A stretch of DNA of 64,000 nucleotides from Halocatena salina (GTDB lineage: Archaea > Halobacteriota > Halobacteria > Halobacteriales > Haloarculaceae): positions 2,356,001 through 2,420,000 of the forward strand of contig NZ_CP096019.1 in assembly GCF_023115355.1 (NCBI RefSeq). Direction: 5' to 3'. Position 1 is the stretch's first letter, and each line of letters starts with the position of its first letter. A program made the translations under genes and the position numbers. Shown here one piece after another: positions 53,916 to 61,683 of the stretch. The notes beneath the pieces are model-generated. The model was not told the DNA's origin. It was given only the letters and a program-made list of their open reading frames with translations, and searched no databases.

Positions 53916-54347
53916 TTACCGAACGATGGTAACGGGTACTGATGACCGACGAGTAACCGCTTCGGCGACGCTTCCGAGGAGAATACGACTCGCACCGGAA
54001 CGGCCGTGGCTTCCGATGACGATGTGATCCATCCCGTGGTCGTCGGCGTACGCCACGATGGCGCGTTTGGTCGATCCGGTTTGTATCTCGGTGTCGATGG
54101 TGACGTCGTGGGCGTCGGCCTGTTCGGTCGCCTCCGCCAACAGCTGTTGAGCCTCTTGCCGTCGTTGCTCTTGAATGGCCTCGTGATTCACCATCCCACC
54201 TTCTACCCCGCCGTAAGCGTACTGCTCGGCAGGATCCAGAACGTGAATGACAGTGATGTCGTCTTCGGCGTGTTCTGTCAACGCATAGTCCAATGCCTCA
54301 CGCGATTGCTCGGAGCTATCGATCGGAACGAGAATGTTCCGGGACAT
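53916..54347 (-). CDS. Universal stress protein (UspA family)
   Basis: 143 residues, single Usp domain. N-terminal NILVPIDSSEQSREALDYAL, and the ATP-binding motif at the end (GSHGRSGASRILLGSVAE followed by VPVTIV). ATP-binding Usp proteins act in stress adaptation. Small separate transcript; divergent from the HTH-10 gene. Confidence 0.93.
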   Translation of the reverse strand: MSRNILVPIDSSEQSREALDYALTEHAEDDITVIHVLDPAEQYAYGGVEGGMVNHEAIQEQRRQEAQQLLAEATEQADAHDVTIDTEIQTGSTKRAIVAYADDHGMDHIVIGSHGRSGASRILLGSVAEAVTRRSSVPVTIVR

Positions 54348-54574: not shown

Positions 54575-55252
54575 ATGACTGAAACAAACATCGTCGTCGA
54601 TATCACGATCCCAGCCGAGAGTTTCGAACTGGGACAGGTGTTCAGCGAGTTTCAAGACCTCACCGTACGCCTTGAACGAATCGTCCCGCTTCGCTCCGAG
54701 CCGTTGCCGTTGTTGTGGGTGTCACACGACGACCGATCGGCGGTGCAGACGGCGCTTCAGGATCATTCCCAAACTGAACTCGTTCGGATCATTTCGACAG
54801 CGAACGACGAAGAGCTGTTCGAAGTGCAGTGGCAAGCGGAGATCGGCGGACTTATCCAGATCATGATCGACGCAGATGCCCGCCTGCTCAAAGCCGAGGG
54901 TACCACAGAAGAGTGGCGATTCCGGCTTCGCTTTGCGACCCACGAGGATCTCACGGCGTTCAATCAGGCCGTTACCGACAGTGGCATTCCGCTGTTGCTT
55001 CGGCAGCTGCATAGTTCGACCGACTCGACCGACGAATCGTCGTTATCAGCCAAACAACGAGAAGCGATCACGATGGCGTATCGCCGGGGGTATTTCAACG
55101 TGCCGCGAGACAGTTCCGTCACTGAGCTCGCTGATGCGGTGGACATCAGCGATTCTGCGTTGTCTCAGCGCCTCCGTCGCGGTCTCTCCGTACTGGTACG
55201 AGAAACGCTCATCTCTAACACGGCAAGCGAGAGAACGACGGGCTGGGAATGA
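54575..55252 (+). CDS. HTH-10 family transcriptional regulator (bacterio-opsin activator type), first copy
   Basis: 225 residues. N-terminal Bat-like sensor domain (about 5-155: IPAESFELGQVFSEF, EVQWQAEIGGLIQIMIDAD, WRFRLRFATHEDL) and C-terminal HTH-10 (about 165-215: SAKQREAITMAYRRGYFNVPR, then SDSALSQRLRRG). A haloarchaeal regulator class with many targets. A second, diverged copy follows 134 nt downstream. Confidence 0.88.
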   Translation: MTETNIVVDITIPAESFELGQVFSEFQDLTVRLERIVPLRSEPLPLLWVSHDDRSAVQTALQDHSQTELVRIISTANDEELFEVQWQAEIGGLIQIMIDADARLLKAEGTTEEWRFRLRFATHEDLTAFNQAVTDSGIPLLLRQLHSSTDSTDESSLSAKQREAITMAYRRGYFNVPRDSSVTELADAVDISDSALSQRLRRGLSVLVRETLISNTASERTTGWE

Positions 55253-55386
55253 CTGCTGGGACCTTCACTACTGAAGGGCCAGTGAGCAACCGATCCTCCG
55301 GGCAATTATTATTCTATGGTTGTGGCTGAATTAATAGACGGACACTCAAGGAAATACTTACCGGGGTAGTACCCAATCAAACAGTC

Positions 55387-56127
55387 ATGGGTATCCGAAC
55401 CGAACGGAACGCGACCCGGGTCGCTGGGATCGGTCACCGAGACGAAAGTACCCTCGTGTGTGGACGTCTTCCTACCGAGGCGTTCGCACTGCACGAAACC
55501 TTCAGTACGATTCCGGATCTCACCGTCGAGTGTGCCCCGCTCGCAGCGGCAGGCGAGACGGCCAATATGTCCATGTTGTGGGCCAACACGGACGAAGCTG
55601 ATCTGATAGATGTCTTGGAGAACGATCCGACCGTTTTTGCTGCCAAAGAACTTTGCCGAACCGAGGACCGGCACTTATACCGGGTAGAATGGACTCCTGA
55701 CGTTCACCGTTGCATCGAGATCCTCCTCCAATCTCAAGGTATCTTGCTCAGCAATCGAGGCGTCCGTTCGGGATGGTCCGTCGAAATCCTCTATCCCACC
55801 CGTGAGGACGTCCGGACCGCGATGGAGTGCTGTGAGCGGTACGAACTGTCCGTTACGATCGATTCGATTCGGTCTCTCGATTCCGATCGGGCGGTCGAGT
55901 GTGGGCTGACACCGGCACAGCATACGGTTCTCACCCAGGCGTGCCGAGACGGATATTTCGACGTTCCACGGGAGATCGGGCTCGAGGAACTGGCGGATAA
56001 GATGAACGTCTCTCACCAAGCTCTCTCCGAACGGTTGCGTCGTGGGCACGACACGCTCATCAGATCCACACTCATCGAAACGTCCTCCGTCTCGCCGACA
56101 GCCCCCTCATCGACGTTGTCCCTGTAG
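55387..56127 (+). CDS. HTH-10 family transcriptional regulator, second copy
   Basis: 246 residues, same layout as the previous gene: sensor domain (about 10-165: STLVCGRLPTEAFALHETFS, YRVEWTPDVHRCIEILLQS) and HTH-10 (about 180-235: TPAQHTVLTQACRDGYFDVPR, HQALSERLRRG). The sensor half is quite diverged from its neighbour, so it likely answers to another signal. Confidence 0.87.
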   Translation: MGIRTERNATRVAGIGHRDESTLVCGRLPTEAFALHETFSTIPDLTVECAPLAAAGETANMSMLWANTDEADLIDVLENDPTVFAAKELCRTEDRHLYRVEWTPDVHRCIEILLQSQGILLSNRGVRSGWSVEILYPTREDVRTAMECCERYELSVTIDSIRSLDSDRAVECGLTPAQHTVLTQACRDGYFDVPREIGLEELADKMNVSHQALSERLRRGHDTLIRSTLIETSSVSPTAPSSTLSL

Positions 56128-56199: not shown

Positions 56200-56589
56200 A
56201 TGGATTTCGATACGTTCCTCGGCGAGGTTCAGCAACGAGCAAAACTCGCCTCGCAAGGAGAGGCACTCAGGATAACACGCGCAACACTTACCACGCTCGG
56301 GGAGCGGCTCGGTTCGGGCGAAGCGACGGATCTCGCGGCCCCACTACCCATGGAGATCGACCGGTTCCTCACGGAGGCCCAATCTGAACAACGGATCGAT
56401 TACGACGAATTCGTCGATCGGGTCGCAGACCGTGCCTCAACGGACCAGTCCGACGCGAACTTCTACGCGCAAGTCGTTCTCGATGTCGTCGCGGACACCG
56501 TGCCCGAAAGCGAATTCAGGGACGTTCGAGACCAACTTCCGAGCGAATACGACAATCTATTCAAGCTGTTGAGTTCTGAAAACTATTAA
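56200..56589 (+). CDS. DUF2267 protein
   Basis: 129 residues, two helical repeats typical of DUF2267: MDFDTFLGEVQQRAKL with ALRITRATLTTLGERLGSGEA, then IDYDEFVDRVADRA with FYAQVVLDVVADTVPESEF. Family of unknown role, often found with stress genes. It precedes the ABCE1-like gene by 82 nt on the same strand. Confidence 0.88.
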   Translation: MDFDTFLGEVQQRAKLASQGEALRITRATLTTLGERLGSGEATDLAAPLPMEIDRFLTEAQSEQRIDYDEFVDRVADRASTDQSDANFYAQVVLDVVADTVPESEFRDVRDQLPSEYDNLFKLLSSENY

Positions 56590-56671: not shown

Positions 56672-58465
56672 ATGGGAGACCCCACTACAGCAGCGCAAAA
56701 AGACAAGTACGTGGCGGTGATCGATCAGGAGAAGGTCACCGACGAGGTTCGAGACATTGCGCTGAAATACGATCCCCTGAATCAGGCGGGACGAGACGAG
56801 GGGTTTCACTTGACGGACAACGGAGAGCTACACATCGATGACGAGGCAGTGATCGAGGAACACAGGATCGTCGCAAACAAGATCCCGAACGACGCGATCG
56901 AAATCGTTCGTCTTCCTGCCGAACGTGGTGAGTTGGTTCACCAGTTCGGGGACAACGGGTTTCGTCTCTACGAACTACCTGGACCGGCCGAGGGGCGCGT
57001 TGTCGGCTTGCTCGGTCCGAACGGTGTCGGCAAATCGACCGCGCTCGGAATACTCAGCGGCTCGTTGAAACCGAACCTCGGAGATTCCGCAGTCGATCCG
57101 GGATGGGACACCATCGTTCGTGAGTTTCGCGGCACGGCCGTACAGACGTATCTCGAACAGCTCCGGGATGGGGCCGTTCGGACAGTGTACAAACCCCAGC
57201 GGATCGATCGGGTGCACGATCAGTACGACGGGACCGTTGCTGAGCTCCTCGGTGAGCGCGACGAACGGGGCGCGTGCGATGAGCTCCTCGAACGCCTCGA
57301 TCTCAGTGCGCTCGCTGACCGGCGCGTCGACAACGTTTCCGGTGGAGAGTTACAGCGTGTTGCGGTCGCGGCGACGCTCGTGGCCGACGCCGATACGTAT
57401 CTGATCGACGAACCGTCGTCGTATCTCGATGTCGATCAACGGCTGACCGTCGCCCGAACGATACAGGAGTACACCGAGGATTCCGTGGCGCTCGTCGTCG
57501 ATCACGACCTCATCACGCTAGACGTCGTTGCCGATACGGTTCACGTGGTGTACGGCGAACCGGCGGGGTTCGGTGTCGTCTCGCGGCCGCTTTCGACTCG
57601 ACGCGGGATCAATCAGTTTCTCGAAGGCTATTTGCGCGACGAAAACGTCCGGATCCGAGAACAGGCCATCGACTTCCTTCGAGATTCCACACGTTACGCC
57701 GATCATCGAACGGACACGTTCGAGTTCCCGACGTTGAAGACGTCGTTCGAATCGTTTTCGTTGCGCATTGAACCGGGAACGCTTCGTGAGGGGGCGGTTC
57801 TGGGCATCCTCGGTCGAAACGGGCTGGGAAAAACGACGTTCGCAAAGCTGCTTGCGGGAATTCTCACGCCGGATGAGGGCGAGCTCGGCACTGACGTCAG
57901 CGTCTCGTACAAACCCCAGTATCTGCAACCCGCCTTCGAGGGCACGGTAGAAGAACTGTTCGCCAGTCACCTCGGTGTCCACAGCCAACCGTACGAAACC
58001 GATCTTTGGCAGTCGTTCGACCTCGATTCATTATCAGAACGAGCGGTGTCTGATCTTTCGGGCGGTGAGCTACAGCGAGTGAGTATCGCGCTCGCGCTCG
58101 GTCGGGACGCACAGCTGTACCTGTTAGACGAGCCGTCTGCGTATCTCGACGCCCGGCAGCGAACGGCGTTCGGTGCGACGCTGCGCCAGTTCGTCACCCG
58201 AGAGAACGTGTACTGCCTCGTTATCGAACACGATCTGCTCCTCCTCGACTACGTTTCTGATCAGACCATGGTGTTCGAAGGTGATCCTGGAACACGAGGG
58301 ATCGGTCGGTCCCCGCGGCCCGTTCACCACGGGATAAATCGGTTCTTACAGACCGTGGGCGTGACCTTCCGGAAGGATCCAACTACCGGCCGCCCCCGGG
58401 CAAACAAACCCGGAAGCCAGAAAGACCGGGAGCAGAAATCGTCCGACAACTACTACGTCGTGTAG
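56672..58465 (+). CDS. ABCE1/RLI-like ribosome-recycling ATPase lacking all iron-sulfur cysteines
   Basis: 597 residues, full length. Both ATPase sites look intact: site 1 GPNGVGKST (115-123), VSGGELQR (222-229), LIDEPSSYLD (244-253), DHD; site 2 GRNGLGKTT (381-389), LSGGELQR (462-469), LLDEPSAYLD (484-493), EHD. The helix-loop-helix of ABCE1 (FRGTAVQTYLEQL, 152-164) and the C-terminal tail (VTFRKDPTTGRPRANKPGS) are kept. The N-terminal region (about 12-80) still follows the RLI pattern (VAVIDQEKV ... ALKYDP ... NDAIEIV), but the eight cluster cysteines are gone; the first Cys is residue 202. Canonical ABCE1 splits ribosomes by moving its 4Fe-4S domain, so this paralogue must act differently. 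Confidence 0.92.
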   Translation: MGDPTTAAQKDKYVAVIDQEKVTDEVRDIALKYDPLNQAGRDEGFHLTDNGELHIDDEAVIEEHRIVANKIPNDAIEIVRLPAERGELVHQFGDNGFRLYELPGPAEGRVVGLLGPNGVGKSTALGILSGSLKPNLGDSAVDPGWDTIVREFRGTAVQTYLEQLRDGAVRTVYKPQRIDRVHDQYDGTVAELLGERDERGACDELLERLDLSALADRRVDNVSGGELQRVAVAATLVADADTYLIDEPSSYLDVDQRLTVARTIQEYTEDSVALVVDHDLITLDVVADTVHVVYGEPAGFGVVSRPLSTRRGINQFLEGYLRDENVRIREQAIDFLRDSTRYADHRTDTFEFPTLKTSFESFSLRIEPGTLREGAVLGILGRNGLGKTTFAKLLAGILTPDEGELGTDVSVSYKPQYLQPAFEGTVEELFASHLGVHSQPYETDLWQSFDLDSLSERAVSDLSGGELQRVSIALALGRDAQLYLLDEPSAYLDARQRTAFGATLRQFVTRENVYCLVIEHDLLLLDYVSDQTMVFEGDPGTRGIGRSPRPVHHGINRFLQTVGVTFRKDPTTGRPRANKPGSQKDREQKSSDNYYVV

Positions 58466-59697: not shown

Positions 59698-61683
59698 GTG
59701 AAGTGTGCGTTTGTTGGTGCGGGATCGGTCGCAGAGGACTACGCGGCTGGTCTCTCCGAATCACCACTCGAACTGACAGCAGTCTGTGATCTGGATGTTG
59801 ATCGAGCCGCTCGACTCGCTGCCACCACCGGGGCAGTTCCCTACGCCGATCTCCAGGAGTTGCTCGACAACGAGACTGTGCCACTCCTCGTGAATCTCAC
59901 GAGCCACGGCGCTCACGCGGCCGTCACGAAGCAGTGTTTAATGGATGATAGACATGTCTTTAGCGAGAAACCCCTCGCGTTCGACGTCGAAGCGGCCCAA
60001 GCGCTCCTCGAAACTGCCGAACAGCGCGAACTCGCGCTAGGGTGTGCTCCGATCAACCACAGGGGTGGTGCTCAGCGCCACGCCGAATCGTTACTCGGTG
60101 ACGGACGTCTCGGAACGGTTCGCCTTGGATACGTTCATGCACACGTCGGTCGGGTGACGGAGTGGCACGACGATCCCGGCTCGTTCCTCGAAGCGGGACC
60201 GTTGTACGACGGCGCTGTTTATCCGCTGACGCTTCTCGTCGCGTGGTTCGGCCGCATCGAACGCGTTCGGATCGCAGACGCGCTCGACGTATGGCCCACA
60301 CGAACGTCACGGTCGCCCGATAGAGCCTCCCACGTGGAGGCGACCATCGAGTTCGCAACCGGGCTGGTGGTTCGGCTCACGGCAAGCCTGTACGCACCCC
60401 ACCGAAGCCGCGAATTCAATAGCCTCGAACTCCACGGCGACGGCGGCTCGCTCTATCTCGCAGACAGCGGAGCACTCGATACCGAGACTGATACCGTTTC
60501 AGTCGGGGGTTCGGGACGAACGTACGTCGCCGCACCCTGTCAGTTCACCCGGCGCGAGCAGCGGTATCTCGACGGTCCCGAGCGGCTCGCAGTCGCCATT
60601 GAGCGCGGACGGCGACCGACGACTGGGGGCCGCCGTGGGCGGCATATCGTCGCAGTCTGCAATGCCATCGAAGCAGCCGCATCCTCGGGTGAGCCGGTGT
60701 CGGTTGCTGACCATCCCGTCTCGTCTCGAACGCCTCGTCCACCGCCCGTTCGTCCCGTTGCGGACGATAGGTCGGTTCTCGACGGAAGCGAACGCACTGC
60801 CGGGATCCGACTGCCACCGATCGGTTTCGGGTGTTCGCGCTATCGGGATGGTGAGTACGTCGACCGACGGAACTCCATCACGACCGCGCTCGATGCAGGC
60901 TATCGGCTGTTCGACTCCGCAGAACTGTACGGCAACGAAGCGCGGATCGGCGAGTTGCTCGCTGCCCCCGGCGCGCCCGACCGTAGCGGGCTGGTTCTCG
61001 TGAGCAAGGTTTGGAACACGAACCACGGTCACGTGGCGGAAGCCTGTGAAGGAAGTCTCGACGCGCTCGGCGTGGAGTCACTCGACTGTTATATGATTCA
61101 TTGGCCCACGGCGTGGGCGTATCAAGGTCCATTGCGGAATCTCGCCACGAAACCACCGACCGAACAGGAAGCGATGGCCTTCCCGACCGACGACGATGGG
61201 CAGCCGGAGACGGTGGACGTGTCACTGACTCGGACGTGGCGACGAATGGAACGGCTCCACGATCGCGGACTCGTGCGGACGCTCGGGGTCTGTAACGTCT
61301 CGGTGGAGCAGTTGACGACCATCGTCGGTTCGGCTCGCGTTCTACCGGCTGTCGTACAGATCGAGTCACACCCCTACCGTCCCCGGACCGAACTCGTTCG
61401 GGCGTGTCACCAGCGAGGCATCAGGGTGATGGCCCACTCTCCTCTCTCCGCGCCGGGACTCCTTTCCGATCCGATCCTCACGTCCATCGCCGAGCGACAC
61501 GGGCGGTCACCTGCGGCAGTCGTGCTCGCGTGGAACGTCCAGCGCAGCGTCGTTCCGATCCCGGCTAGTATCGACCGTGATCACATCGTTGCGAACCTCG
61601 CGGCTGCTCGGCTCGAACTCACTCCCGAGGACTGCGAACGGATCGCGACGCTTGAAGATCCGGAGTTCGACCGATCCCCGTGA
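59698..61683 (+). CDS. Fusion of Gfo/Idh/MocA oxidoreductase and aldo/keto reductase
   Basis: 661 residues. Residues about 1-330 are a Gfo/Idh/MocA enzyme (FVGAGSVAEDYAAGL, VFSEKPLAFD, then EWHDDPGSFLEAGPLYDGAVYPL). A linker of about 40 Pro/Arg/Ser-rich residues leads to an AKR domain (about 365-655) with the full tetrad: Asp and Tyr in RLFDSAELYGNE, Lys in LVLVSKVW, His in CYMIHWP; PIPAS near the end contacts NADP. The two could carry out consecutive redox steps on one sugar or polyol. GTG start at 59698. Its TGA overlaps the next gene (GTGA). Confidence 0.9.
   Translation: MKCAFVGAGSVAEDYAAGLSESPLELTAVCDLDVDRAARLAATTGAVPYADLQELLDNETVPLLVNLTSHGAHAAVTKQCLMDDRHVFSEKPLAFDVEAAQALLETAEQRELALGCAPINHRGGAQRHAESLLGDGRLGTVRLGYVHAHVGRVTEWHDDPGSFLEAGPLYDGAVYPLTLLVAWFGRIERVRIADALDVWPTRTSRSPDRASHVEATIEFATGLVVRLTASLYAPHRSREFNSLELHGDGGSLYLADSGALDTETDTVSVGGSGRTYVAAPCQFTRREQRYLDGPERLAVAIERGRRPTTGGRRGRHIVAVCNAIEAAASSGEPVSVADHPVSSRTPRPPPVRPVADDRSVLDGSERTAGIRLPPIGFGCSRYRDGEYVDRRNSITTALDAGYRLFDSAELYGNEARIGELLAAPGAPDRSGLVLVSKVWNTNHGHVAEACEGSLDALGVESLDCYMIHWPTAWAYQGPLRNLATKPPTEQEAMAFPTDDDGQPETVDVSLTRTWRRMERLHDRGLVRTLGVCNVSVEQLTTIVGSARVLPAVVQIESHPYRPRTELVRACHQRGIRVMAHSPLSAPGLLSDPILTSIAERHGRSPAAVVLAWNVQRSVVPIPASIDRDHIVANLAAARLELTPEDCERIATLEDPEFDRSP

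Follow-up and report, generated by a model that had tools for sequence, protein, structure and literature searches.

The open frame at positions 56672-58465 (+) of the window, by which we mean the whole 64-kb stretch of DNA analyzed here, begins with an ATG and encodes a 597-aa Cys-less RLI/ABCE protein, whose place in the ABCE/RLI family as a form free of the cofactor is well supported by sequence. ABCE1 is described as dependent on two essential FeS clusters. Comparison of the Cys-less RLI with its relatives gives good support also to its history: it represents an old lineage, inherited separately from the host RLI and often carried on plasmids, whose sister is an RLI with four cluster Cys residues.

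An RLI without cluster ligands

The NCBIfam RLI model NF009945 matches residues 13-596 with 701.6 bits (cutoff 469), and a Pfam scan of the product returns two ABC_tran stretches and no match to PF04068 (Fer4_RLI) or to the Fer4 families. Neither the eight Cys nor the PF04068 match that mark canonical ABCE1 is present: the only Cys are residues 202 and 515, and the first-pass annotation was exact in reporting none among residues 1-201. The nucleotide-binding domain (NBD) pair is complete, with both Walker A motifs (GPNGVGKS in NBD1, 57014-57037, and GRNGLGKT in NBD2, 57812-57835) and both ABC signatures (57338-57358 and 58058-58078), and with the Walker B/D-loop segments at 57407-57430 (catalytic E247) and 58127-58150 (catalytic E487), all on the + strand; the H-switch His is kept at both sites (H278 and H520). 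The protein also retains the features that mark RLI/ABCE membership, namely, the helix-loop-helix insert of NBD1 (57125-57172, +), hinge 1 (57599-57658, +) and hinge 2, the rRNA anchor (58361-58435, +). The earlier claim of a complete ABCE1 architecture with intact ATPase sites therefore stands, refined by two substitutions: E147 of the helix-loop-helix is Ala, as in some canonical haloarchaeal RLIs, and N70 of the cantilever is Arg. Architecture, ATPase sites, helix-loop-helix, hinges and predicted N-terminal fold are alike in this protein and in ABCE1/RLI/Rli1, the archaeal and eukaryotic recycling ATPase (PDB 3bk7 and 6tmf), whereas the Cys-less form lacks the eight ligands and the Fer4_RLI match and has K15, N17 and N70 changed.

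The former FeS-cluster domain (residues 12-81; 56705-56914, +) has been substituted rather than deleted, as had been proposed, and aligns across both cluster motifs. In the numbering of Sulfolobus solfataricus, used throughout for ABCE residues and checked against chain d of 6tmf, the C11/C16/C20/C24 motif is replaced by VTDEVRDIALKYDPLNQAG (56735-56791, +), with V22, V26, A30 and D34 at the ligand positions, and the C51/C54/C57/C61 motif by residues 60-79 (56849-56908, +), with V60, H64, V67 and I71. The same kinds of residue recur throughout the Cys-less RLIs (22 of 22 aligned): V/L/I, V/I, A and D at the first four positions and V, H, V/I and I at the last four. No Cys occurs in this domain in 27 distinct relatives, all of them intact. 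By comparison, Cys occupies all eight ligand positions in 13 of 13 canonical haloarchaeal RLIs and in 25 of 25 other archaeal RLIs aligned, a count that leaves out one six-Cys protein from Diapherotrites. The absence of Cys is not a matter of chance, since 27 distinct relatives share it and like substitutes fill the eight positions in all 22. The excluded protein, from Diapherotrites LH_S9 (L010:5986-7740), lacks the equivalents of C24 and C57, and other Diapherotrites RLIs have eight Cys; it is apparently an independent partial loss.

Structure prediction suggests, with moderate confidence, that the N-terminal domain has kept its ferredoxin-like fold. The AlphaFold2 model of the full-length protein has a mean pLDDT of 83, with blocks of residues 11-80 at 84-91 and the last block at 77-84, and models the former cluster loops as helices 24-33 and 62-70. 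The closest structures to the full model are those of ABCE1, and its domain orientation is uninformative because of a pTM of 0.53 and poor global superposition. Modeled alone, the N-terminal domain reaches a pLDDT of 68 (core, 70-81) and best matches the FeS domain of 3bk7 (TM 0.62, 2.4 Å), at an E-value of only 0.005; among structures other than ABCE1, a ferredoxin ranks first. The alignment used for modeling includes canonical RLIs and may bias the predicted fold.

The residues that touch the ribosome have fared unequally. R144 of the helix-loop-helix and the hinge-1 residues N305 and N316 (N314 and N325 here) are present in the alignment, as are the equivalents of R565, R572, R574, K577, S580 and R584, the hinge-2 anchors described for the archaeal 30S complex (PMC7196836). 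The Cys-less group as a whole conserves the ATPase residues and the hinge-2 anchors, but several contacts of the FeS domain and cantilever are altered in all its members (K15 to E; N17 to R/K; N70 to R/Q/P). Position 147 is A, T, G or V, a change that is not distinctive because the Glu is also missing from 5 of 13 canonical haloarchaeal RLIs. As a separate observation, the NBD1 Walker B/D-loop segment reads DEITPYLD in four canonical haloarchaeal RLIs (L004, L037, L038 and L042) and DEPSSYLD or DEPSSFLD in the Cys-less, four-Cys and Pyrococcus RLIs.

The gene is under constraint. Pairwise NG86 dN/dS values are 0.08-0.20 among the Cys-less RLIs and 0.02-0.08 among canonical RLIs, and in 11 of 11 Cys-less pairs (not all of them independent) the N-terminal domain has a lower dN/dS than the NBDs, from which we conclude that the former FeS domain is actively maintained. 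The paralog and the canonical RLI have similar dS. It is very improbable that the gene is a degenerating copy derived from the host RLI or a product of sequencing or assembly error: one relative does have a broken reading frame (L063, G199:C4:132210-133604, a Cys-less RLI interrupted near residue 465), but 27 intact distinct sequences, a dN/dS of about 0.1 and a deep separate clade refute such an origin. The first-pass annotation had likewise argued against a dying gene, and the low dN/dS and the clade of intact relatives bear this out; isolated relaxed evolution, which it had named as a refuting pattern, is not what the dN/dS values describe.

Ancestry of the Cys-less and four-Cys forms

A canonical RLI, which the first-pass annotation had suggested seeking elsewhere in the genome, lies on the same contig (G000:C1:212780-214573, -); it has eight FeS Cys, matches both Fer4_RLI and Fer4, and is 47% identical to the Cys-less RLI. 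A further Fer4_RLI match in the host genome, a 182-aa frame at C1:691002, is, judging from its size, presumably a Tsr3-type protein. Among 392 genomes of the host's order, with carriers called by score and inspection of the N terminus, 17 encode a Cys-less RLI, each alongside a second RLI match (17 of 17); a family search added four more carriers (G403, G404, G411 and G430), and in the phylum sample all matches above the cutoff fall within the host's order. Eight complete plasmids bear the gene, one each in Haladaptatus salinisoli, Natronococcus sp. AD-5, Natrinema zhouii, Natrinema sp. DC36, Haloprofundus sp. MHR1 and Haloferacaceae archaeon XH8 and two in Haloarcula sinaiiensis; those genes that carry an annotation are labeled just RLI. 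RLIs with eight Cys also occur on plasmids (L055, Halarchaeum pCBA1220-03; L056, a Natronorubrum bangense plasmid), in both cases within a few kb of a gene for the β-CASP ribonuclease aCPSF1.

Only the NBDs and hinges went into the trees, which kept the FeS-domain trait itself from playing any part. The Cys-less RLIs form one clade (support 93/87), answering the earlier question of whether they would, and the four-Cys RLI is its sister (100/99); canonical haloarchaeal RLIs cluster apart from both, with methanogen RLIs. When the Cys-less and four-Cys forms are constrained to join canonical haloarchaeal RLIs, the AU test rejects the resulting tree (p = 0.006), which together with the unconstrained tree rules out a recent duplication of the host RLI. 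The description of the gene as an RLI paralog thus holds in the sense of a second RLI under constraint and fails in the sense of a copy that arose locally from the host RLI. Diapherotrites were considered as a donor when their six-Cys sequence grouped with the Cys-less clade in the first tree; it moved to Diapherotrites once eleven more of these were added, and the candidate was dropped.

The four-Cys RLI was found in four metagenome-assembled genomes (MAGs) from two uncultured haloarchaeal families, as loci L035, L034 and L032 in genomes G009, G025 and G037 of family f9 and locus L033 in genome G011 of family f11. It retains C11, C16, C20 and C61 and carries D24, V51, H54 and S/C57 at the other ligand positions. 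In a two-cluster ferredoxin, as in clostridia, one cluster is bound by Cys 1, 2, 3 and 8 together and the other by Cys 4, 5, 6 and 7; by this ferredoxin rule, on which the assignment rests, the four retained residues are exactly one cluster's ligands. Of the 70 ways in which four of the eight Cys could be lost at random, 2 would remove a complete set. The four-Cys RLI thus probably holds a single cluster. It is the sole RLI found in its four MAGs, in which the other Fer4_RLI matches are only short frames of 170-187 aa, and with completeness of 88-98% it is unlikely that a canonical copy was overlooked in all four. It differs from its Cys-less sister by keeping the four Cys and shares with it the DPLNRS/GFH segment as well as D24, V51 and H54; these three shared residues independently suggest that the common ancestor of the two forms had already lost one cluster, with the second loss coming later. 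The pattern, in trees without a fixed root, points to a stepwise loss, from two clusters to one to none.

Gene neighborhoods and candidate functions

The neighbors of the Cys-less RLI differ between clades A and B. In the host genus (clade A) they are of a stress type: in three species the gene is flanked by two BAT/HTH_10 (bacterio-opsin-activator-like) regulators, a CBS-domain protein and a universal stress protein. In the window, a DUF2267 protein, putatively linked, lies directly upstream (56200-56589, +), preceded by the two regulators (54575-56127, +; order conserved with G327 and G378) and the universal stress protein (53916-54347, -; position conserved with the same two genomes). An ORF at 59698-61683 (+) of the window encodes 661 aa and fuses a GFO/IDH/MocA oxidoreductase to an aldo/keto reductase. 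A DUF2249 gene is nearby in 7 of 13 clade-B loci, three of which share one plasmid island with genes for POR, a ferredoxin, FrdB, a tryptophanyl-tRNA synthetase (TrpRS) and a CGCGG RiPP; the Haloprofundus pMHR1-2 island (L122) holds several DUF2249 and CGCGG-RiPP genes, a hemerythrin, DUF542, a TrpRS gene and an FrdB-like subunit near the Cys-less RLI. In Haloferax mediterranei, denitrification is accompanied by a rise of all four DUF2249 genes (PMC11218638); the denitrification promoter motif CGAAYATDKTYG from the same study is absent from the window. We read these neighborhoods as pointing to a stress or anaerobic setting; the FeS enzymes on the clade-B island (POR, FrdB and ferredoxin) fit anaerobic life as well as FeS shortage.

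The reading that we favor, at about even odds, is that the Cys-less RLI is an FeS-independent ribosome-recycling or anti-association ATPase that serves as a backup when clusters fail; we infer both the splitting and the conditions of use. We posit that ATP-driven NBD closure would still swing the cluster-free domain into the intersubunit space, so that the protein, acting alongside the canonical RLI, could (i) split ribosomes with aRF1/aPelota or (ii) at least cap the 30S subunit against reassociation, with no need for iron or for the FeS assembly machinery. It could step in under cluster damage or iron shortage, upon exposure to reactive oxygen or nitrogen species or to metals, or in a shift to anaerobic conditions. 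That the cluster of yeast Rli1 is a main target of reactive oxygen (PMC5763138) favors such a backup role; that splitting has been linked to the FeS cluster domain in published studies (PMC6656783, PMC7196836) counts against it, and splitting could be impaired because the contacts of K15, N17, N70 and E147 are changed. An active factor nevertheless seems likelier than a pure binder, because the 30S anchors, the ATPase sites and a constrained N-terminal domain are all retained.

The main rival, which we consider rather unlikely, is that the protein binds 30S without splitting, as a cluster-free anti-association or hibernation factor in dormancy or stress. Retention of the hinge-2 anchors and NBD catalytic residues alongside changed K15, N17 and N70 would suit such a holder, as would the distinct ATP-site dynamics of a construct devoid of the FeS domain (PMC6656783) and the universal stress protein and DUF2267 neighbors in the host genus. 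However, constraint on the gene is strongest in the former FeS domain, which argues for a specific job over a relic, and the standing of the four-Cys sister as sole RLI in its genomes implies that losing one cluster need not end recycling. Quite unlikely, in our view, is a mobile accessory gene with a specialized role, such as a shield against a ribosome-targeting agent or a service to a plasmid, rather than in general recycling. Its patchy spread over haloarchaeal families, its many megaplasmids, the two copies in H. sinaiiensis and the second TrpRS on clade-B islands all suggest mobility, but the neighborhood common to three species and the similar dS look like vertical inheritance, and none of the phage records and viral contigs searched carries a Cys-less RLI, a result that also disposes of a phage or viral origin. 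A PADLOC match to mad3, which had raised the prospect of MADS defense, is generic: a canonical RLI scores 170 bits, above the 156 bits obtained here. Joining the backup splitter to the inferred ancestry yields a fuller account, in which ABCE lost its clusters stepwise, a single-cluster RLI performs all recycling in two families, and its cluster-free sister is a splitter that spread as an iron-independent backup; we hold this account tentatively and give it a little less than an even chance.

Relation to other FeS losses and significance

A general trend of FeS loss in haloarchaea is already known. Haloferax TFE-β has lost its FeS cluster, as apparently has haloarchaeal RNA polymerase subunit D (PMC5861453), and these are, like the Cys-less RLI, proteins of the core machinery minus a structural cluster; they belong to unrelated families in which lack of the cluster is the norm, whereas the Cys-less RLI coexists with a cluster-bearing canonical copy. 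Plants likewise can carry a second ABCE copy in one genome (PMC7839781, PMC9618717), but ABCE1 and ABCE2 are close paralogs, 81% identical in Arabidopsis (PMC7839781), and loss of FeS ligands is not described in the passages of these two papers that were consulted. The open-access literature searched describes neither a Cys-less nor a single-cluster RLI, an absence that is weak evidence. What appears to be new is the case of ABCE, together with the intermediate and the coexisting canonical copy.

These natural variants bear on an open question, namely what a ribosome splitter needs iron for. RLIs with two, one and no ligand sets, built on a conserved ATPase and found in cultivable haloarchaea, offer a means to test the clusters as structural, regulatory (redox or iron sensing) or mechanical elements. 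If the Cys-less form works, it would show that ribosome recycling can be sustained when FeS clusters fail; and if the loss was stepwise and the end product is a working splitter, neither cluster would be strictly needed for splitting.
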